A DNA stretch of 64,000 bases from Mitsuaria sp. GD03876 (GTDB lineage: Bacteria; Pseudomonadota; Gammaproteobacteria; Burkholderiales; Burkholderiaceae_C): contig NZ_JAOCCU010000001.1 in the NCBI RefSeq assembly GCF_029840635.1, positions 124,001-188,000 of the forward strand, read 5' to 3'. The notes beneath the pieces were generated by a model. That model was not told the DNA's origin, searched no databases, and saw only the letters and a list, made by a program, of their open reading frames with translations. This document shows, piece after piece, positions 41,545 to 50,202 of the stretch. The translations under genes were made by a program, and so were the position numbers. Each line of letters starts with the position of its first letter. Position 1 is the first letter of the stretch.

Positions 41545-43098
41545 ATGTCGACGCGCCCCGGGGCAAGGCCTGCCCCCCGATCCCGGCCAGTCCCGGCCTT
41601 GCTGGCGGCAGCCGCCGCCGCCATCGCCTGTGGCGGTGCCCAGGCCGCGCCCGCCGATGCCGACGCATCGCGGCAGGCCCTGCATCCCTGCCGCATCGAG
41701 GGCGTCGCCACCGAGGTCCTGTGCGGCAGCGTGAAGCGCCCGCTCGATCCGGCCCGCCCCGAGGCCACCTCGATCGACGTCCACTACGTCGTCGTGCCGG
41801 CGCTGGCGCGCAACAAGCTGCCCGACCCGGTGCTGCTGCTGGCCGGCGGCCCTGGCCAGAGCGCCATCGCGCTGACCTCGACGGTGATGCCGCGGCTGTC
41901 GCGACTGAACTACCGCCGCGACCTCGTCTTCATCGACCAGCGCGGCACCGGCCGCTCGGCGCCGCTGTCCTGCCCGGACAACAGCGACCGCGGCCTCGAG
42001 GAGCTGCTCAAGCCGGGCGCGAAGGTGCGGCTGCTCGAGCAATGCCGCGACGAGCTGAAGCGGCTGCCCTACGGCGACCTGCGCTTCTTCACGACGACGA
42101 TCGCGATGCAGGACATGGATGCCGTGCGCGCCGCGCTCGGCGCGGAGAAGTGGAACCTGGTCGGCGCGTCCTACGGCACGCGCGCGGCGCTGGAGTACCA
42201 GCGCCAGTTCCCCGATCGCGTGCGCCGCGCCGTCATCGACGGCGTCGCGCCGCCGGACATGGTGCTGCCGGTGAGCTTCTCGCAGGACGGCCAGCGCGCG
42301 CTGGACCTGATGTTCGACGCCTGCGCCAAGTCCGCCGACTGCAACGCCCGCTACCCGGCGCTGAAGACCGAATGGCAGGCGCTCATCAAGGGCCTGCCGC
42401 GCAAGGTCTCGTTCACGCATCCGCTGACCGGCCGCGCCGAGGAGGTCACGCTGACCCGCGACGCGCTGCTCGGCCTGGTGCGTCCGCCGCTGTACGCGCC
42501 GCAGTTCGCGGCCGCGCTGCCGGCGGCGCTGCACGAGGCGTCGCAAGGCCGCTTCGACGCGCTCGGCGGCCTGGCCGGGCAACTGGGCGGCGGCTCGCGC
42601 TCGATGCGCATCTTCGAGGGCATGCATTTCTCGGTCGTGTGCGCCGAGGACGCGCCGCGCATCGCCGCCTCGACCGACGTGCCCGGCACCGATTTCGGCA
42701 CGATGGACCGCGAGCTCTACACCCGCGTGTGCGCCGGCTGGCCGCGCGGCGACGTGCCGGCGGCGTTCTACGCGATCCCGCCGGCCCGGACGCCGGTGCT
42801 GATGACCAGCGGCGGCAGCGACCCGGCGACGCCGGAGCGCCATGCGCGGCGCGTCCAGCAGGCGCTGGGCGCGAACGCGCGCTCGGTCGTCGTCGGCGCC
42901 GCCGGTCACGGCGTCGCGCTGACGCTGCCCTGCCTGCGCGACGCGCTGTTCCGCTTCATCGACGCCCCCAAGGACGCCGACGCGCTGCAGGTCGACACCA
43001 GCTGCGCCAAGGACGTGCCGCGTCCGCCCGCCTACCTGCCCCCCACCCCGGCGACCATCGCGGCCGCCGCTTCCGCCGCCCGGGAGTCCGACCGATGA
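41545..43098 (+). CDS. Exported alpha/beta hydrolase, TAP-like peptidase family
   Basis: This 517-residue precursor has an Ala-rich signal peptide ending near AQAAPA. Catalytic elements are visible: GGPGQSA oxyanion loop, FIDQRGTGRS, nucleophile GASYGT (Ser~209), acid SGGSDPAT (Asp~429) and AAGHGVAL (His~455). This is the layout of proline-iminopeptidase/TAP-type hydrolases (S33). The stop overlaps the next gene (ATGA), coupling it to an ABC exporter. A substrate or link with the exporter is not evident. Confidence 0.85.
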   Translation: MSTRPGARPAPRSRPVPALLAAAAAAIACGGAQAAPADADASRQALHPCRIEGVATEVLCGSVKRPLDPARPEATSIDVHYVVVPALARNKLPDPVLLLAGGPGQSAIALTSTVMPRLSRLNYRRDLVFIDQRGTGRSAPLSCPDNSDRGLEELLKPGAKVRLLEQCRDELKRLPYGDLRFFTTTIAMQDMDAVRAALGAEKWNLVGASYGTRAALEYQRQFPDRVRRAVIDGVAPPDMVLPVSFSQDGQRALDLMFDACAKSADCNARYPALKTEWQALIKGLPRKVSFTHPLTGRAEEVTLTRDALLGLVRPPLYAPQFAAALPAALHEASQGRFDALGGLAGQLGGGSRSMRIFEGMHFSVVCAEDAPRIAASTDVPGTDFGTMDRELYTRVCAGWPRGDVPAAFYAIPPARTPVLMTSGGSDPATPERHARRVQQALGANARSVVVGAAGHGVALTLPCLRDALFRFIDAPKDADALQVDTSCAKDVPRPPAYLPPTPATIAAAASAARESDR

Positions 43099-43913
43099 TC
43101 CGCCTGCACGCGCTCCACAAGACCTTCCAGACGCGCGGCGGCGGGGGCGGCTCGCTCGGATCGCTGTTCGGCAAGAAGAGCGCCGCGCGCACCGTGGTCG
43201 CGGTCGAGCAACTGGACCTCGACGCCCCGAACGGCCGCATCACCGGGCTGCTCGGCCCGAACGGCGCGGGCAAGACGACCTCGCTGCGGATGCTGGCGGG
43301 CCTGTTCCCGCCGGACCGCGGCGCGATCGAGGTCGACGGCGTCGACGTGCTCAAGCAGCCGCGCGCGGCGCTGGCGCGCATGGGCATCCTGGGCGACGCC
43401 CACGGCCTGTACCCGCGGCTGACCGCGCGCGAGAACATCGTCTACTTCGCCCGGCTGCAGGACATCCCGATGGACCAGGCGCAGGCCCGCGCCGAGTCGC
43501 TGGCCGAGCTGCTGGACATGCGCGCCATCCTGGACCGCCGCGCCGACGGCTTCAGCCAGGGCGAGCGGATGAAGACCGCACTGGCGCGCGCGCTGGTCCA
43601 CGATCCCGCCAACATCGTGCTCGACGAGCCGACCAACGGGCTGGACGTCGTCGCCACGCGCGCGCTGCGCGAGGTGCTGCGGCACCTGCGCTCGCCGGCC
43701 GGCGGCGGAAAGTGCATCGTCTTCTCGAGCCACATCATGCAAGAGGTGGAACAGCTCTGCGATCAGGTGGTGGTGATGTCGCATGGCCGTTCGGTGGCCA
43801 CCGGCACCGTCGACGGGCTGCTCGCGCAGACCGGCCGCCAACGCTTCGAGGACGCCTTCGTCGACCTCGCCTTCCCTGAAGCGGCGCGCGCGCGCGCCCT
43901 GGAGTCCGCATGA
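43095..43913 (+). CDS. ABC exporter ATPase, NatA type
   Basis: This 272-residue ATPase has Walker A GPNGAGKTT at 54-62, signature region FSQGERMKTALARALVHDP and Walker B NIVLDEPTNGLD. NatA-like sequences often drive sodium export or efflux of other small molecules. A glycine-rich insertion (RGGGGGSLGS) precedes the ATPase core near residue 15. It overlaps both neighbours by four bases, so the three genes form one operon. Confidence 0.9.
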   Translation: MIRLHALHKTFQTRGGGGGSLGSLFGKKSAARTVVAVEQLDLDAPNGRITGLLGPNGAGKTTSLRMLAGLFPPDRGAIEVDGVDVLKQPRAALARMGILGDAHGLYPRLTARENIVYFARLQDIPMDQAQARAESLAELLDMRAILDRRADGFSQGERMKTALARALVHDPANIVLDEPTNGLDVVATRALREVLRHLRSPAGGGKCIVFSSHIMQEVEQLCDQVVVMSHGRSVATGTVDGLLAQTGRQRFEDAFVDLAFPEAARARALESA

Positions 43914-45088
43914 ACGGATCGTTCCTCAAAGCCTTCCGCACGGTCTTCGCCAAGGAGATCGTCGACGCCCTGCGCGACCGGCGCACGCTGCTGCGGCTGC
44001 TGATCCCGTCGGTGCTGATGGGGCCGTTGATGCTGATGATGATGTCGGGGCTGGCGGCGTCGCTGCAGGAACGCGCCGAGCAGCGCGAGGTGCTGGTCGC
44101 CGGCATCGAGCACGCGCCCACGCTGCGCAACTACATCGAGCGCCAGACCTACACGATCAAGGCGGCCCCGGCCGACTTCGAGGCGCAGCTGCGCGCATCG
44201 AAGCTGACCGACCCGGTGCTGGTCGTGCCGCCGGACTTCGAGACGCTGCTGGCCGGCGGCGAGCCGGCCGCGGTCGAGATCGTCAGCGACAGCGTCAACC
44301 AGCGCGCCGAGGCCGGCGTGGGCGCGATCAGCCGGCTGCTGCAGGGCTTCGGCAACGAGCGCGCGACGCTGATGCTGGCGATGCGCGGCCTGGGCCCGCA
44401 GCAGCTGCGCCCGCTGGACGTGCGCGAGCGCGACCTGGCCAGCATGCAGGCGCGGTCCACGCGGCTGACGCAGATGCTGCCGATGTTCATCATGATGGCG
44501 GTGCTCTACGGCGCGCTCACCGCGGCGCTGGACAGCACCGCGGGCGAGCGCGAGCGCGGCTCGCTCGAGCCGCTGCTGGTGAACCCGGCGCCGCACGCGG
44601 CCATCGTGGCCGGCAAGTGGGCCGCGGTGCTGATGGCGGGGATGCTGGTGGCGGTGCTGTCCAACCTCAGCTTCCTGCCCGGCCAGTGGCTGATGCGCAG
44701 CGACGCGCTGGCGGCGATGTTCCAGTTCGGCTGGGCCGAGGCGCTGCGCTTCCTGCTGCTGCAGATCCCGCTGGGCGCGGGCTTGTCGGCGGTCCTGATG
44801 GCGCTGGCGATCCGCACGAAGACCTTCAAGGAAGCGCAGGCGAGCACCACGCTGGTCATCACCGCGGTGGCGCTGACACCGATGGTGGCGATCGTGAACC
44901 CGGGCGGGGAGGCGGCGTGGCACCTGTGGGTGCCGGGCCTGGGTCAGAACCTGCTGATGATGCAGGTGCTCAAGGGCGAGCCGCTGACCTTCGCGAAAGT
45001 GATGCCGACGGTGATCGTCGGCGCGGCGCTGACCGTGGGCGGCCTGGCGCTGGTGGCGCGCTCGATGCGCGCGGCGGTGGCGCGATGA
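43910..45088 (+). CDS. ABC exporter permease, NatB type
   Basis: This 392-residue membrane protein begins FAKEIVDALRDRRTLLRLLIPSVLMGPLMLMMM, a hallmark of NatB/ABC-2 permeases. A large loop (about residues 60-180) and several C-terminal hydrophobic helices follow. It partners NatA. Related proteins move Na+ or antibiotics; the substrate is unknown. It ends 42 bp before a convergent small gene, with a GGGGCGC hairpin in the gap. Confidence 0.87.
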   Translation: MNGSFLKAFRTVFAKEIVDALRDRRTLLRLLIPSVLMGPLMLMMMSGLAASLQERAEQREVLVAGIEHAPTLRNYIERQTYTIKAAPADFEAQLRASKLTDPVLVVPPDFETLLAGGEPAAVEIVSDSVNQRAEAGVGAISRLLQGFGNERATLMLAMRGLGPQQLRPLDVRERDLASMQARSTRLTQMLPMFIMMAVLYGALTAALDSTAGERERGSLEPLLVNPAPHAAIVAGKWAAVLMAGMLVAVLSNLSFLPGQWLMRSDALAAMFQFGWAEALRFLLLQIPLGAGLSAVLMALAIRTKTFKEAQASTTLVITAVALTPMVAIVNPGGEAAWHLWVPGLGQNLLMMQVLKGEPLTFAKVMPTVIVGAALTVGGLALVARSMRAAVAR

Positions 45089-45129: not shown

Positions 45130-45375
45130 TCAGTGCCGCGTGGCCAGCGCGAGCTGCACCTGCTCCTGCCACGGCAGCGTGTGGACGATGCCGTTGAGCT
45201 GGATCACCGATTCCATCGGCGCCAGCACCTCGCCGGCGCGGTTCAGGAACTGCAGGTTGGTGACCAGCGCCATCGGATCCACCATCGAGACCATGCCGTA
45301 GGGCATGCGGACCCAGTCCCAGGCGACCCCGGCGGCGCCATACTCGGATTCCCCGCTCCACAGGGTTTGCCCCAT
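45130..45375 (-). CDS. Small protein of unknown function beside luxR
   Basis: This 81-residue protein starts at the ATG at 45375 (MGQTLWSGESEYG). It contains VAWDWVRMPYGMVSMVDPMALVTNLQFLNRAGEVL and has the look of a compact soluble domain. An upstream extension to 45573 would run through a clearly AT-richer stretch that looks like promoter, so the short form is preferred. It is divergent from the LuxR-type regulator and shares its 333-bp upstream region, including a lux-box-like site. No known family is recognised. Confidence 0.55.
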   Translation of the reverse strand: MGQTLWSGESEYGAAGVAWDWVRMPYGMVSMVDPMALVTNLQFLNRAGEVLAPMESVIQLNGIVHTLPWQEQVQLALATRH

Positions 45376-45708
45376 GGCCGGGTGATCCTCGTCTCCCGCG
45401 ACCAACACGCGCGTGCTCAAATGCGCGAACTGCAAGCGAGGCAGACGCTGTACATCACACAATATTCGCGGCCACGCGTACACAATCCAGGCTGGTGTCA
45501 TTGTCAGAATTGTTGAGTTTGGATACTGCGGTTCGGCGGTTGCGCTTCTCCCCATGGGCTGAAGTGTGGTCACGACAGACGGGCCTCGCCAGCTGTAAAC
45601 CCTAGCAGGGGCGTGAAAGCCTCACGCGGACGCCGCGCAGGCACATCGGTGCGATGCGGCACCGCCACGGAGATCACCAGGGCCGGGCCCGTGCGGCCGG
45701 AGCGATAG
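45376..45708. other. 333-bp divergent regulatory region of the luxR locus
   Basis: No gene is seen here. Bases about 45440-45540 are markedly richer in A+T than the flanking DNA and probably hold divergent promoters. A lux-box-like sequence is present at 45591-45608. The sequence GGAG sits just before the luxR start at 45709. Confidence 0.6.
45591..45608. promoter_or_regulatory. Lux-box-like site upstream of luxR
   Basis: AGCTGTAAACCCTAGCAG lies 100 bp before the luxR ATG. It contains the CT-N12-AG spacing seen in LasR/RhlR-type boxes. Fourteen of 18 bases match a site at 46446-46463, before the exported-peptide gene, and the first ten (AGCTGTAAAC) are identical. Confidence 0.6.
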
Positions 45709-46428
45709 ATGCTGCAAGGCGGTTATCAATCAGTGTTGGAAGCGAGTTCGCGCGACGAGTTCCGCAGCGAGATCACGCGGTTCGCGCGTGGGCTGGAATT
45801 CGAGCGGTTCTCGGCGATCCTGGTCGTCGACCACGCGATCGGGAACTCCGATTTCATCGCGGTGGAGAACGCGCCGGACGGCTTCTCGGACATCTTCAAC
45901 GACCCGCGGCTGGGCAAGCGCGACCCCGTCATGCAGCACTGCAAGCGGCAGAGCGTGCCCATCGTCTGGAACCAGCAGACCTACGTGAAGAACGATGCGC
46001 CGGAGCTCTGGGAAGCGCAGGCGCCGTTCGGCTACAAGGTCGGCATCTCGCTGGCGCTGCACCTGCCCGAGGGGCGCCATTTCGTGCTGGGCGTGAATCG
46101 CGACGAAGGCCTGCCGACCAACCCGACCGCGCTCACGCGCATGGTCGCGGACCTGCAGCTGTTCGCGGTGCACGCGGTCGATGCCGCGATGCGGCTGCTG
46201 CTGCCGACACCGACCGCGCCCGACGTGGACACGCCGCGCCTGACGCCGCGCGAGCTCGAGTGCCTGCACTGGACCATGGAAGGCAAGACCGCCTGGGAAG
46301 TCGGCGCCATCCTCAGCATCACCGAACGCACGGCGGTGCTGCACATCAACAATGCGATGCACAAGCTCGGCTGCACGAACAAGCACCAGGCGGTGCTCAA
46401 GGCGCTTCGGCTGGGCCTGATTCGCTGA
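45709..46428 (+). CDS. LuxR-family quorum-sensing-type regulator (no luxI nearby)
   Basis: This 239-residue protein has an autoinducer-binding-type domain (residues 1-165) and a LuxR helix-turn-helix (177-239: RLTPRELECLHWTMEGKTAWEVGAIL). Aligned by spacing with TraR/LasR, the conserved residues Asp72, Pro73 and Trp87 are kept, but the Trp57/Tyr61 equivalents are Phe59 and Phe63. No luxI-type synthase is in the window, so it is an orphan or solo regulator, perhaps sensing an exogenous or altered ligand. It immediately precedes the peptide-export genes and shares a lux-box-like sequence with them. Confidence 0.9.
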   Translation: MLQGGYQSVLEASSRDEFRSEITRFARGLEFERFSAILVVDHAIGNSDFIAVENAPDGFSDIFNDPRLGKRDPVMQHCKRQSVPIVWNQQTYVKNDAPELWEAQAPFGYKVGISLALHLPEGRHFVLGVNRDEGLPTNPTALTRMVADLQLFAVHAVDAAMRLLLPTPTAPDVDTPRLTPRELECLHWTMEGKTAWEVGAILSITERTAVLHINNAMHKLGCTNKHQAVLKALRLGLIR

Positions 46429-46445: not shown

Positions 46446-46477
46446 AGCTGTAAACACTGTAAGAGCTGACAGTTACA
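46446..46477. promoter_or_regulatory. Lux-box-like site and dyad upstream of the exported-peptide gene
   Basis: AGCTGTAAACACTGTAAG (46446-46463) has CT-N12-AG spacing and matches the luxR-upstream site at 14 of 18 bases. It overlaps a second symmetric element, TGTAA-N10-TTACA (46458-46477, 20 bp). The block lies 89-76 bp upstream of the peptide start, about the same distance as the site before luxR. It is the probable control point of the operon. Confidence 0.6.
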
Positions 46478-46552
46478 AGGCGTCCTGGGCGCTGCTTCAA
46501 TCCGTCCCGTGCTCAACGAATCCGCAGCACGTCACCGAATCTGGAGCCTCTC

Positions 46553-46744
46553 ATGAACGCCCAACCGAACACCGCCGCCGTCGAAACCGTCGAACAAGAA
46601 GGCCTGGTCGAGCTGGATCTCGAATGCCTGACCCACGTCGGTGGCGGCACGCCGAAGGGCACCTGGCTGACCAGCCAGGACGTCTCGCTGCAGAGCGTGG
46701 CCGCGACCGGCGGCGTCGAACCCACGCCCAAGGGCACCTGGTAA
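46553..46744 (+). CDS. Double-glycine-leader peptide with duplicated TPKGTW motif
   Basis: This 63-residue precursor has leader LVELDLECLTHVGGG. Taking the cut after the third Gly (residue 32) places Val at -4, Leu at -7 and Leu at -12, as in class-II/C39 leaders. The predicted mature 31 residues start with TPKGTW (33-38) and end with TPKGTW (58-63). The two coding blocks (46649-46666 and 46724-46741) match at 17 of 18 bases. A second GG (residues 53-54) could release a shorter peptide. There is no cysteine in the mature part and no modification gene nearby. GGAG lies 7 bases upstream of the ATG. The HlyD and C39-ABC genes follow directly. Bacteriocin or signal peptide; the latter is favoured by the LuxR link and lack of an immunity gene. 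Confidence 0.75.
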   Translation: MNAQPNTAAVETVEQEGLVELDLECLTHVGGGTPKGTWLTSQDVSLQSVAATGGVEPTPKGTW

Positions 46745-46796
46745 GCCTCGCGGCTGACCGCGCGATCCGTCAGGTTCGCAACAAGGAGTAGCAAAC

Positions 46797-48044
46797 GTGG
46801 TGGCGCTGTTCCGCGCCGAAGCCCAGGCCTCGCAACAGCAGGCCTGGCTGGGATCGGTGCAACTGCATCGTCCGGCCACGTTGCGGTGGCTGAGCATCCT
46901 GGCGCTGGGCGGCGTGGTCGCCGTCGGGGCCTTCCTGTTCAGCACCGAGTACACCCGCAAGGCCCGCGTCAACGGCCTGCTGGTGCCCGAGCGCGGCGTG
47001 ATGCGGCTGAGCGTGCCGCAGAGCGCCACCGTCGTGGCGCGACCCGTCCAGGACGGCCAGCAGGTGCATGCCGGCGACGTGCTGTTCGTGCTGTCGCTGG
47101 ACAGCGCGAACCCGACCGGCGACGGCCTGTCGAGGACCTTGAAGGAACGCGAGCAATCGCTGGGTGCGGCGCAGTCGCAGCAGCGGGAGCTGGCGCAAAG
47201 TCAGGCGAGCGCGTTGAAGGCGCGCATCGCGACGCTCGAATCCACGCTGCGGCAGGCCGATGCCGAGCTGCAGCTGCACGCGGAGCGCGAAGCGCTCGCG
47301 CGCCAGAGTCTGGGACGGCTGGAGTCGCTGGCGAAAGACCAGTTCGTCTCGAGCGCCCAGGTCCAGACCAAGCGGGAGGAGTTGCTTGGCTTGCAGGCCC
47401 AACGGCAGGCACTTTCGCGTGAGCGCGAAAACCTGCAGCGGGAGGCGTTGGGCTTGCAAGCTGAGCTTCATGCGATCCCCTTGAAGGCGCAGGTGCAGCA
47501 AGGGGAACTGGCGCGCGACATCGCCGCGCTGCAGGCGCAGGGCGTCGAGAACGAAGCCCGCCGCCGCCTCGTGCTGCGCGCCCCGAGCGACGGCCAGATG
47601 AGCACGGTGCTCGCCGAGCCCGGCCAGGTCGTGCAGGCCGGCACGCAGCTCGCCGCGCTGCTTCCGGCGCGCACCTCGCTGCAGGCCCATCTCTACGCCC
47701 CGTCCAGCGCCGTCGGATTCCTGCGGCCGCACCAGGCGGTGCTGCTGCGCTACCAGGCGTTTCCGTACCAGAAATTCGGCCAGCAGGAAGGCGAGGTCCT
47801 GCAGGTCTCGCGCACGCCGCTGCAGGCTGCGGAGCTCGCGCAACTCGGCCTGCCCGCCGCGATGGCGCAAGGCGAGCCGATGTACCGCATCACCGTGCAG
47901 CTGCAACGCCAGTCGGTCGAAGCCTACGGGCAGGACCAGACGCTCAGCCCCGGTATGCTGCTCGAGGCCGACGTGCTGCTCGAGCGGCGCCGTCTGATCG
48001 AATGGATCTTCGAACCGCTGCTGAGCCTCGCCCGCCGTGTCTGA
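46797..48044 (+). CDS. HlyD-family membrane-fusion protein of a peptide exporter
   Basis: This 415-residue protein starts at GTG 46797 (AAGGAG 8 bases upstream). One membrane helix (about 30-50) is followed by the short lipoyl-like half ESVNGLLVPERGVMRLS, a long coiled coil rich in Gln/Glu/Ala/Leu (about 105-265), the second half (VLRAPSDGQMSTVLAEPGQVVQAGTQLAALLP) and a beta-barrel end. It would link the ABC exporter to an outer-membrane channel. No TolC-type gene is present here, so that part must be shared. It lies 52 bp after the peptide gene and overlaps the transporter gene by 8 bp. Confidence 0.92.
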   Translation: MVALFRAEAQASQQQAWLGSVQLHRPATLRWLSILALGGVVAVGAFLFSTEYTRKARVNGLLVPERGVMRLSVPQSATVVARPVQDGQQVHAGDVLFVLSLDSANPTGDGLSRTLKEREQSLGAAQSQQRELAQSQASALKARIATLESTLRQADAELQLHAEREALARQSLGRLESLAKDQFVSSAQVQTKREELLGLQAQRQALSRERENLQREALGLQAELHAIPLKAQVQQGELARDIAALQAQGVENEARRRLVLRAPSDGQMSTVLAEPGQVVQAGTQLAALLPARTSLQAHLYAPSSAVGFLRPHQAVLLRYQAFPYQKFGQQEGEVLQVSRTPLQAAELAQLGLPAAMAQGEPMYRITVQLQRQSVEAYGQDQTLSPGMLLEADVLLERRRLIEWIFEPLLSLARRV

Positions 48045-50202
48045 TGCCCCCTCTTCCGGCGCCCCCGCGGGCGCCCCGCCGCCGGGCCTGCTCGCGCGGC
48101 TGAACCTCGGCTGGCGCCGCCGCCGTCCCGTCATCCTCCAGACCGAGGCCGCCGAGTGCGGCCTCGCCTGCCTGGCGATGGTCGCGGCGACGCATGGCCA
48201 GCGCTGGTCGCTGGGCGAGCTGCGCGATCGCTTCGCCGTCTCGCTCAAGGGCCTGACGATGGCGGACCTGGTGCGCATGGGCGCGCAGCTCGGCCTGACC
48301 GCGCGAGCGCTGCGTGCCGAGCCGCATTCGCTGCACAAGCTGCAGACGCCCTGCATCCTGCATTGGGACTTCAACCACTTCGTCGTGCTCGACGGCGTGC
48401 AGGGCGACCGCGCGGTCATCCTCGACCCCGCGCACGGCGAGCGCCGCCTGCCGCTGTCGGAGGTCTCCAAGCACTTCACCGGCGTCGCGCTCGAGCTGCG
48501 CCCGGGCATGGACTTCGCGCGCAAGGCGCCGGCGCCCGCGCCGAAGTGGCGCCAGCTGCTCGGCCACGTGAGCGGCCTGAAGCGCTCGCTGGCGCAGGTG
48601 CTGGGCCTCGCCCTCGGCCTGGAGCTGCTGGGCCTGCTCGCGCCCTTCCTGCTGCAATGGACCGTCGACGGCGTCATCGTCAGCGCCGACCGCGACCTGC
48701 TCGTCACGCTGGGCATCGGCTTCGCGCTGCTGGTGCTGCTGCAGGTCGGCGTCGGCGTGCTGCGCTCGTGGGCGGTGCTGATCCTGTCGGCGTCGCTCAA
48801 CCTGCAGTGGCTGTCCAACGTGTTCTCGCACCTGCTGCGGCTGCCGCTGGCGTGGTTCGAGAAACGCCATCTCGGCGACATCTGGTCGCGCTTCTCCAGC
48901 GTGCAGGAGATCCAGAAGACGCTGACCGGCAGCTTCATCGAGGCGGTGCTCGACGGCCTCATGGTGCTGCTCACGCTGATGATGATGCTGCTCTACAGCG
49001 GCCGGCTGACCGCCGTCGCGCTGACCGCGGTGGCCGGCTACGCGCTGCTGCGGTGGGCCTTCTTCAAGCCGATGCGCGGCGCGCAGGAAGAAGCCCTGAC
49101 CCACGAGGCCCGCCAGAACACCCACTTCCTCGAGTCGCTGCGCGGCGCGCAGGCGATCAAGCTCTTCAACGCGCAGGCCGATCGCAGCGCGCGCTTCGCC
49201 AACCTGGTCGTGGAGCAGATGAACGCCTCGCTGACCGGGCGCAAGCTCGAGCTCGGCATGACGCAAGGCAATCGGCTGCTGTTCGGGCTGGAGCGCGTGG
49301 CCATCGTCGCGATGGGCGCGATGCTGGTCCTCGACAAGGAACTGTCGGTCGGGATGCTGTTCGCGTTCCTCGCCTACAAGGACCAGTTCAGCCAACGCAT
49401 CGCCGGACTGATCGACAAGGTCGTCGCGCTGAAGATGCTGCGCCTGCAAGGCGAGCGCCTCGCCGACATCGTGCTCACCGCGCCCGAAGCCGACCTCGAC
49501 GCGCCCGGCCGCGCCGTGCCGCAAGGCGCCGCACTCGAGCTCGACACGCTGCGCTTCCGCTACGCCGACGGCGAACCCGAGGTCATCGCCGGCTGCTCTC
49601 TGCGCATCGAGCCCGGAGAGTCGGTCGCCATCGTCGGCCCCTCAGGCTGCGGCAAGACGACGCTGATGAAACTGATGCTCGGCATCCACGCGCCGCAGCA
49701 CGGCGAGATCCGCATCGGCGGCGTGTCCCTCGCCCAACTCGGCGCGAACGCCTGGCGCGAACGCATCGGCACCGTCATGCAAGACGACCAGCTCTTCGCC
49801 GGCAGCATCGCCGACAACATCAGCTTCTTCGACCTGAACATCGACCCCGATTGGGTCCGCGAATGCGCCCGGCTGGCATGCGTGCTCGAAGACATCGAGG
49901 CCATGCCGATGCGGTTCCAGACGCTCATCGGGGACATGGGGTCCAGCCTCTCAGGCGGCCAGCGGCAACGCATCCTGCTCGCGCGAGCGCTCTACAAGCG
50001 GCCGCAGTTCCTGTTCCTCGACGAGGCGACCAGCGCGCTCGACGTGGAGCGGGAACGGCTCGTCAATGCGAGCCTGCGGCAGCTGTCGCTGACCCGGATC
50101 GTCATCGCGCATCGGCCGGAAACCATCGCGGCAGCGCAGCGGGTCGTCAGCCTGCAAGGCGGGCGGGTGGTGCAGGATCTGCGGACGGTGCACCACGCTT
50201 GA
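48037..50202 (+). CDS. Peptidase-containing ABC exporter (C39)
   Basis: This 721-residue transporter starts at GTG 48037. The N-terminal C39 peptidase has Cys41 (AAECGLACLAM), His114 (DFNHFVVLDG) and Asp130 (AVILDP), the full cysteine-protease triad. Six-helix membrane domain spans about 165-450. The ATPase has Walker A GPSGCGKTT (~534), signature LSGGQRQR (~638) and Walker B FLFLDEAT (~660). This class cuts double-glycine leaders and exports the peptide in one step. The GG-leader peptide encoded just upstream is the obvious substrate. Confidence 0.95.
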   Translation: MSDAPSSGAPAGAPPPGLLARLNLGWRRRRPVILQTEAAECGLACLAMVAATHGQRWSLGELRDRFAVSLKGLTMADLVRMGAQLGLTARALRAEPHSLHKLQTPCILHWDFNHFVVLDGVQGDRAVILDPAHGERRLPLSEVSKHFTGVALELRPGMDFARKAPAPAPKWRQLLGHVSGLKRSLAQVLGLALGLELLGLLAPFLLQWTVDGVIVSADRDLLVTLGIGFALLVLLQVGVGVLRSWAVLILSASLNLQWLSNVFSHLLRLPLAWFEKRHLGDIWSRFSSVQEIQKTLTGSFIEAVLDGLMVLLTLMMMLLYSGRLTAVALTAVAGYALLRWAFFKPMRGAQEEALTHEARQNTHFLESLRGAQAIKLFNAQADRSARFANLVVEQMNASLTGRKLELGMTQGNRLLFGLERVAIVAMGAMLVLDKELSVGMLFAFLAYKDQFSQRIAGLIDKVVALKMLRLQGERLADIVLTAPEADLDAPGRAVPQGAALELDTLRFRYADGEPEVIAGCSLRIEPGESVAIVGPSGCGKTTLMKLMLGIHAPQHGEIRIGGVSLAQLGANAWRERIGTVMQDDQLFAGSIADNISFFDLNIDPDWVRECARLACVLEDIEAMPMRFQTLIGDMGSSLSGGQRQRILLARALYKRPQFLFLDEATSALDVERERLVNASLRQLSLTRIVIAHRPETIAAAQRVVSLQGGRVVQDLRTVHHA

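Follow-up and report, generated by a model that had tools for sequence, protein, structure and literature searches.

A LuxR solo beside an exported, repeated hexapeptide in Mitsuaria and its relatives: a candidate self-inducing peptide circuit in a Gram-negative family

LuxR-type receptors are best known for sensing fatty-acid-derived signals, not gene-encoded peptides, and LuxR solos are abundant, many of them without a known ligand. Peptide quorum sensing through intracellular receptors is known from the RRNPP systems of Gram-positives (Rap-Phr, PlcR-PapR, ComRS), whose receptors are TPR proteins. Excerpts of the published account of PipR from Pseudomonas GM79 describe a LuxR solo that does not respond to acyl-homoserine lactones (AHLs), has altered AHL-contact residues and is activated by a peptide imported via an ABC transporter; its natural ligand is given there as an unknown plant compound, and these excerpts do not say that the tested tripeptide is encoded by the system itself (PMC4981722). 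PipR is thus a precedent for a LuxR protein that answers to an imported peptide. The subject here is a unit in a 64,000-nucleotide stretch of Mitsuaria sp. GD03876 (contig NZ_JAOCCU010000001.1, positions 124,001 to 188,000; the window), in which a luxR solo is followed by a small gene for a precursor with a repeated hexapeptide, TPKGTW, and by the genes of a HlyD adaptor and a C39-peptidase ABC exporter (C39-ABC). On sequence comparison, we consider it quite likely that luxR, precursor, hlyD and C39-ABC form a self-inducing pheromone circuit whose receptor, the LuxR solo, binds the re-imported hexapeptide. No description of such a luxR/xPxxxW system was found in open PMC papers, a collection that leaves out most subscription journals and bioRxiv; the main text of a 2015 LuxR solo survey, as far as it was available, mentions neither HlyD nor Roseateles (PMC4338825).

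The unit is laid out as follows, in window coordinates:

45709 to 46428, forward strand: luxR solo, 239 residues, Autoind_bind (PF03472) and GerE (PF00196); proposed intracellular hexapeptide receptor
46553 to 46744, forward strand: precursor gene, an open reading frame (ORF) of 63 residues; double-glycine leader up to GGG (residue 32), then a 31-residue product
46649 to 46666, forward strand: hexapeptide copy 1, TPKGTW, immediately behind the GGG
46724 to 46741, forward strand: hexapeptide copy 2, TPKGTW, directly followed by the stop codon
46797 to 48044, forward strand: hlyD, periplasmic adaptor of the exporter (Pfam HlyD_3, 4e-16)
48037 to 50202, forward strand: C39-ABC exporter gene (Peptidase_C39, 1e-35; ABC_membrane; ABC_tran)

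The precursor reads MNAQPNTAAVETVEQEGLVELDLECLTHVGGG-TPKGTW-LTSQDVSLQSVAATGGVEP-TPKGTW, and both elements that define a C39-exported double-glycine peptide, the leader and the C39-ABC, are present. If cleavage occurs behind GGG, Val stands at -4 and Leu at -7, which we take to be the usual double-glycine spacing, and TPKGTW is the exact N-terminus of the 31-residue product, with the second TPKGTW as its C-terminus. The original prediction, made from the window alone, had described a 63-residue precursor followed by HlyD and C39-ABC genes and a mature peptide that begins and ends with TPKGTW, encoded by blocks identical at 17 of 18 bases; ORFs, Pfam matches and coordinates agree with it. Its proposal that the repeat was recent or under strong selection stood in the second half only. 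All 15 Roseateles precursors end in [TA]PKGTW-linker-[TA]PKGTW (9 T/T, 6 A/A, 0 mixed), with 0 to 4 codon differences between the copies and a linker that varies in length and sequence. Since both copies have the same residues in 15 of 15 precursors while their codons are free to differ, selection keeps them equal, and a recent duplication is ruled out by up to four synonymous differences. Family scans covered the precursors of the window and of Roseateles: the window precursor matched no known family in Pfam, NCBIfam or PHROGs, and the 15 Roseateles precursors gave only single weak matches in Pfam and NCBIfam (E 0.2 or worse).

The arrangement exceeds what chance would give: of 16 genomes of the genus, 15 encode the precursor beside this luxR (E <= 8e-10), with mnmG and an ORF at 45130 near by; the named members include Mitsuaria chitosanitabida, Roseateles chitinivorans, R. 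noduli, R. aquatilis, R. depolymerans and R. terrae, and the sixteenth genome (G009; G and L numbers are our labels for genomes and loci) has a divergent precursor with APTKGW twice. When 399 family genomes were searched with a precursor profile, 33 had matches (E <= 0.01; 17 genera). Of these loci 26 were fetched first: G000, G004, G006 and G015 were already in the set, the matches of G071 and G313 were left out as lying inside long frames, and G081 was added later. True relatives make up 25 of the 26 (G270 is not real), and in all 25 luxR lies just upstream on the same strand, its match ending 115-260 nucleotides (nt) before that of the precursor; hlyD and C39-ABC adjoin the precursor in 23. 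The original prediction would have been refuted by a lack of homologues with conserved termini; such homologues occur across much of the family. Moreover, luxR is part of the unit: the LuxR-type regulator that the original prediction had placed next door is there, but not as a mere neighbour. With a threshold of E <= 1e-60, luxR orthologues are present in 92 of 398 family genomes and 37 of 141 genera. Among 300 genomes of the order, just three matched at E <= 1e-50: the own genome, a second member of the family and one from another family (40% identity). For the family analysis, 100 luxR loci were taken from 34 of the 37 luxR-bearing genera.

A candidate precursor was found at 93 of these 100 loci (34 genera); 89 carry at least one xPxxxW and two more a heptamer. 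There are 54 distinct hexamers, counting the last copy of each precursor, in one to five copies per precursor, and the copies are identical in 33 of 37 multi-copy precursors (exceptions G105, G157, G288 and G407). Other duplicated endings are TPRGGW, GPKGGW, APKNTW, APKSGW, APRGGW and APKSTW, and SPKGTW occurs in four copies. The ORF ends in W or at most three residues from W in 89 of the 93, which were chosen with a score favouring a C-terminal W; because of this choice a blind count was run as an unbiased control, and it found P-x-x-x-W-stop within 400 nt downstream of luxR at 82 of 96 loci, against 0 of 96 in antisense and 1.7% in shuffles. In 5 of 91 precursors (G089, G118, G226, G351, G356) GG is followed directly by the hexamer and the stop, and in 2 of 91 (G093, G197) by a heptamer, so that C39 cleavage, as predicted, would suffice to free the peptide; in G032 the cut site is ambiguous. 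Short ORFs ending in the hexamer, of 20, 10, 19 and 31 residues from the chosen ATG in G026, G308, G240 and G157, have no recognisable leader and no adjacent C39-ABC. The G061 precursor (L172) holds five GPNGGW copies with short linkers between them, and those of G168, G043 and G249 (L102, L103, L157) hold four SPKGTW copies behind a different short leader, with no adjacent C39-ABC; G043 has a C39-only match just downstream.

The identity of the hexapeptide tracks LuxR, not the exporter. In partial Mantel tests peptide distance correlates with LuxR distance given the exporter ABC protein (r=0.336, p 0.001, n 66) and not with ABC distance given LuxR (-0.035, p 0.81); with HlyD as the control the values are 0.288 (p 0.001) for peptide and LuxR and 0.039 (p 0.19) for peptide and HlyD (n 65). 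A joint site scan of 64 loci placed LuxR 69 and 66 at the top, above all HlyD and ABC sites, and LuxR 69 kept this rank after dereplication to 49 loci. Within the ligand domain, LuxR positions aligned to the presumed ligand contacts of LasR outscore the other positions (Mann-Whitney p 0.011, the sites not being independent). Scans against single peptide positions are noisy, with an ABC site reaching 0.40 for peptide position 1. Over 87 loci, Gly at LuxR 69 goes with Thr at peptide residue 5 in 34 of 37 cases, with Val or Tyr in 4 of 4 and with Gly in 0 of 36, where position 69 is Trp, Ala, Met and others; the pattern reads as a size exchange between the two residues. When the 57 loci with G, T, V or Y at peptide residue 5 were placed on the exporter tree, 12 of 13 independent pairs were concordant at LuxR 69 and none discordant, compared with 7 for the best of 791 exporter sites in the same test. 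Additionally, LuxR 75 is Met with K or R at peptide residue 3 in 59 of 61 cases and with V or T in 0 of 11. A pairing of peptide residue 1 with LuxR 114 looked suggestive in cross-tabulation; it was no better than the best exporter sites and for that reason is not relied on. The suggestion in the original prediction that the peptide may be a signal is strongly supported, since from lineage to lineage the hexapeptide and the ligand-binding domain of LuxR vary together.

The receptor candidate combines an autoinducer-binding domain with a GerE helix-turn-helix, has no TPR family in its domain listing and is alone in the window genome in matching PF03472. A search with PF00765 found no luxI in that genome, other synthase families lying outside the search; PF00765 is present in 4 of 16 genus genomes. 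The AHL contacts of LasR we take to be Y56, W60, D73, W88 and S129. By alignment, the equivalents of Y56, W60 and S129 are replaced in most of the 97 LuxR proteins compared (Tyr in 0 of 97 and Trp in 6 of 97 at the first two, Gly in 95 of 97 at the third), which points to a loss of AHL contacts; those of D73 and W88 are kept.

An apparent natural swap is seen in the window genome itself. Pairwise identities of hlyD, the ABC gene, an ABC-2 permease gene and mnmG group it with the users of APKGTW, whereas its LuxR is 72-75% identical to that of the APKGTW users and 86-92% to that of the TPKGTW users. Compared with four APKGTW users at the nucleotide level, the ligand-domain half of luxR is 73-75% identical, whereas identity is 86-90% in the DNA-binding half and 85-94% in the coding flanks. 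Values for the precursor and the intergenic stretches are low whichever type of user is compared (62-87%) and are uninformative; by eye the linker of the window precursor resembles that of the APKGTW users. Since the ligand-domain half alone diverges within luxR, it seems to have changed jointly with the hexapeptide.

A conserved dyad lies between luxR and the precursor. The regulatory elements are:

46457 to 46472, no strand assigned: lux-box-like operator of the peptide promoter, CTGTAAGAGCTGACAG, the conserved dyad between luxR and precursor
46496 to 46501, forward strand: candidate -10 element TTCAAT, from the consensus of 89 aligned upstream regions
45593 to 45608, no strand assigned: lux-box-like site upstream of luxR, CTGTAAACCCTAGCAG, a candidate for autoregulation

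The site between luxR and precursor reads CTGTAAGAGYTGACAG. The full CTGT-N8-ACAG dyad is found there in 80 of 97 loci (shuffles 0.1%), and at least 7 of its 8 bases in 94 of 97 (shuffles 5.7%). After the box the 89 aligned upstream regions conserve T.cAAT, with 34 nt from box centre to -10 centre, presumably the geometry of class II LuxR-activated promoters. Conserved operator and spacing together make LuxR most likely an activator of the precursor-exporter operon. The site upstream of luxR is weaker, with 7 of 8 bases in 81 of 98 loci and 8 of 8 in 4 (shuffles about 8.5% at 7 or more). A large regulon was considered and rejected: in its own genome the operator occurs once at up to one mismatch and once more, in a slightly different pattern, at up to two.

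The proposed circuit would run as follows. Judging from family knowledge, the C39 domain would remove the leader by cleavage behind GG(G) as the precursor is exported; the product, carrying one or more copies of xPxxxW (here TPKGTW), would be trimmed by other proteases where needed; the hexapeptide would return to the cytoplasm, probably via an oligopeptide permease, and bind the ligand pocket of the adjacent LuxR solo. Import is possible in view of nine oligopeptide-binding SBP_bac_5 matches in the genome, none of them on the window's contig. Loaded LuxR would then bind the site at 46457-46472 and activate the precursor-exporter operon, so that the signal would induce itself. The arrangement of genes, repeats and operator and the covariation of hexapeptide and LuxR pocket are read from sequence; from them we infer binding, trimming, import and activation.

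Such a circuit would share features with several known systems. Like PipR and OryR, as far as the source excerpts describe them, it would have a LuxR solo with altered AHL contacts answering to an imported peptide (binding and import being predicted here), with the difference that the proposed ligand here comes from a linked gene and would leave the cell through an exporter. With the RRNPP systems it shares a short linear peptide from a precursor end, an adjacent intracellular receptor and lineage-specific coevolution of the two; it differs in the LuxR fold of the receptor (Autoind_bind and GerE, not TPR), in double-glycine/C39 export and in up to five identical copies per precursor. LuxI-LuxR quorum sensing has in common with it the receptor family, a lux-box-like operator, class II geometry and a predicted positive feedback, but here Tyr56, Trp60 and Ser129 (LasR numbering) are mostly replaced, the window genome yielded no LuxI and a peptide is proposed instead of an AHL. 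From class II bacteriocins and streptococcal pheromones, which also have a double-glycine leader, a C39 peptidase exporter and an adaptor, the unit differs by its repeated hexapeptide and LuxR partner, and neither an immunity gene nor a histidine kinase was seen in it.

The closeness to class II bacteriocins, with their double-glycine leader and C39-ABC, lends some weight to reading the exported peptide as a secreted effector, such as a bacteriocin, that LuxR switches on in response to another ligand; the original prediction had offered a narrow-spectrum bacteriocin as its second option. Antimicrobial genes are often controlled by LuxR-type regulators, one-mismatch operator-like sites precede GG-type ORFs in G008 and G005 (one of them microcin-like), and the ORF at 45130-45573 beside luxR may be a remote immunity gene. 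We nevertheless regard an effector as quite unlikely: no immunity or modification gene is seen between the precursor and the end of the ABC gene, as the original prediction itself had remarked, the hexapeptide does not correlate with the exporter once LuxR is accounted for, precursors are kept beside luxR without an adjacent exporter, down to the leaderless ORFs of 10-31 residues in G026, G308, G240 and G157, and in some loci the predicted product has just 6-7 residues. The bacteriocin half of the original prediction is not supported.

Alternatively the peptide could be a signal with its receptor elsewhere, LuxR sensing some other molecule and only setting the expression of the operon. The retention of Asp72, Pro73 and Trp87 and the presence of LuxI in a quarter of the genus genomes would fit this, but pocket residue 69 follows peptide residue 5 across nearly all independent pairs, in the contrast between T and A users strong divergence within luxR is confined to its ligand-domain half, and neither LuxI nor a second Autoind_bind protein was found in the window genome; a receptor elsewhere is therefore unlikely. 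A further possibility, that the hexapeptide acts inside its producer as a LuxR co-ligand or timer and that export is secondary, could draw on the exporter-less lineages that keep short ORFs ending in xPxxxW, four of them leaderless. On the other hand, 73 of 100 loci have a C39-ABC downstream and a GG leader is present in most precursors, which indicates that export is normally selected, and each of the 16 Roseateles genomes has some other C39-ABC (36-54% identity); we hold purely internal action to be very unlikely.

Several points weigh against the self-inducing pheromone circuit that we prefer. The AHL-receptor residues Asp72 (94 of 97), Pro73 (97 of 97) and Trp87 (96 of 97, one gap) are kept, and no dedicated importer is linked to the unit. 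Mantel permutations control only partly for shared history, and a part of it persists, since in the comparison with mnmG neither partial correlation falls to zero or below (0.382 and 0.260, n 38). The luxR gene is physically linked to the precursor, for which hlyD on the other side is the control, and the covarying sites were found by scanning. The size exchange is incomplete: peptide-5 S, R, A or M goes with Gly69 in only 1 of 10 cases, and peptide-5 T with S or A at LuxR 69 in 3 of 37. With all peptide-5 classes included, the exporter tree gives 13 concordant pairs of 16 and the LuxR tree 11 of 19; no pair is discordant, and the rest are unchanged at 69. At LuxR 75, 7 of 7 independent pairs agree, only slightly better than other sites, which reach 6. 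Finally, the precursors of G209 and G401 hold neither xPxxxW nor heptamer, the luxR loci of G282, G240b and G367 have no candidate precursor, and at 27 of 100 luxR loci the stretch examined shows no C39-ABC (four of these stretches end within 140 nt of luxR).

Within the genus, too, hlyD and the ABC gene are absent beside the precursor in 6 of 15 genomes (G001, G004, G005, G011, G014, G015). Short HlyD coiled-coil-like remnants (REELLGLQAQRQ-like, by eye) downstream of the precursor in L029, L032, L033 and L038, where hlyD and the ABC gene are gone, suggest deletion of the exporter. Tandem luxR paralogues stand beside a single xPxxxW precursor in G111 (L184, up to five paralogues), G211 (L174), G226/G356 (L177/L179) and G081 (L168); they may add receptors for that one signal or serve to detect foreign signals.

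Further operator-like sites were seen outside the unit. Six C39-ABC paralogue stretches (L243, L246-L250) have none, and two others, L244 and L245, were picked because each has one. In G008 (L245, about 1922, reverse strand) a one-mismatch site precedes a 60-residue, microcin-like ORF with a GG leader, followed by a membrane-protein-like ORF, and is a possible target of the circuit; in G005 (L244, about 5043) another precedes a 230-residue GG-leader ORF near a C39-ABC gene. One-mismatch sites CTGTAAGAGYTTGCAG lie in the same gene neighbourhood in G011, G012, G015, G005 and G010 (L222, L223, L224, L226, L227), and in 4 of these 5 genomes an ORF that we take to be Ku-like starts 76-138 nt on; as the sites resemble the luxR-upstream variant, a second target in that clade is possible.

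Among the neighbours, the ORF at 45130-45573 (reverse strand, 147 residues), divergent from luxR, has no family match over the cut-off and is present in 14 of 14 Roseateles loci of the genus set and 14 of 25 loci of the family search. About 2.6 kb upstream of luxR, an alpha/beta hydrolase gene with a TAP-like domain (41545-43098, forward strand) is followed by an ABC ATPase gene and then an ABC-2 permease gene (43910-45088); the hydrolase occurs in 13 of 25 family-search loci and 13 of 14 genus loci. Given that peptidase genes flank pipR, it might act on xP peptides. No proline iminopeptidase gene immediately flanks luxR in the window.

Taken beyond the window, these loci would in our judgement likely form a quorum-sensing class of their own: LuxR-family receptors with gene-encoded, exported linear xPxxxW ligands, at least 54 lineage-specific codes within one family, and a specificity position at LuxR 69 facing peptide residue 5. 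If this is true, encoded peptide signalling through LuxR would be widespread in one Burkholderiales family and would offer dozens of candidate orthogonal channels. It would be a distinct route for Gram-negative bacteria to sense kin by peptide, and would join a Gram-negative type of signalling receptor with peptide signals known from Gram-positives. With the ligand of a LuxR family apparently encoded next door, both partners can be read off the DNA, exchanged and put to a direct test.

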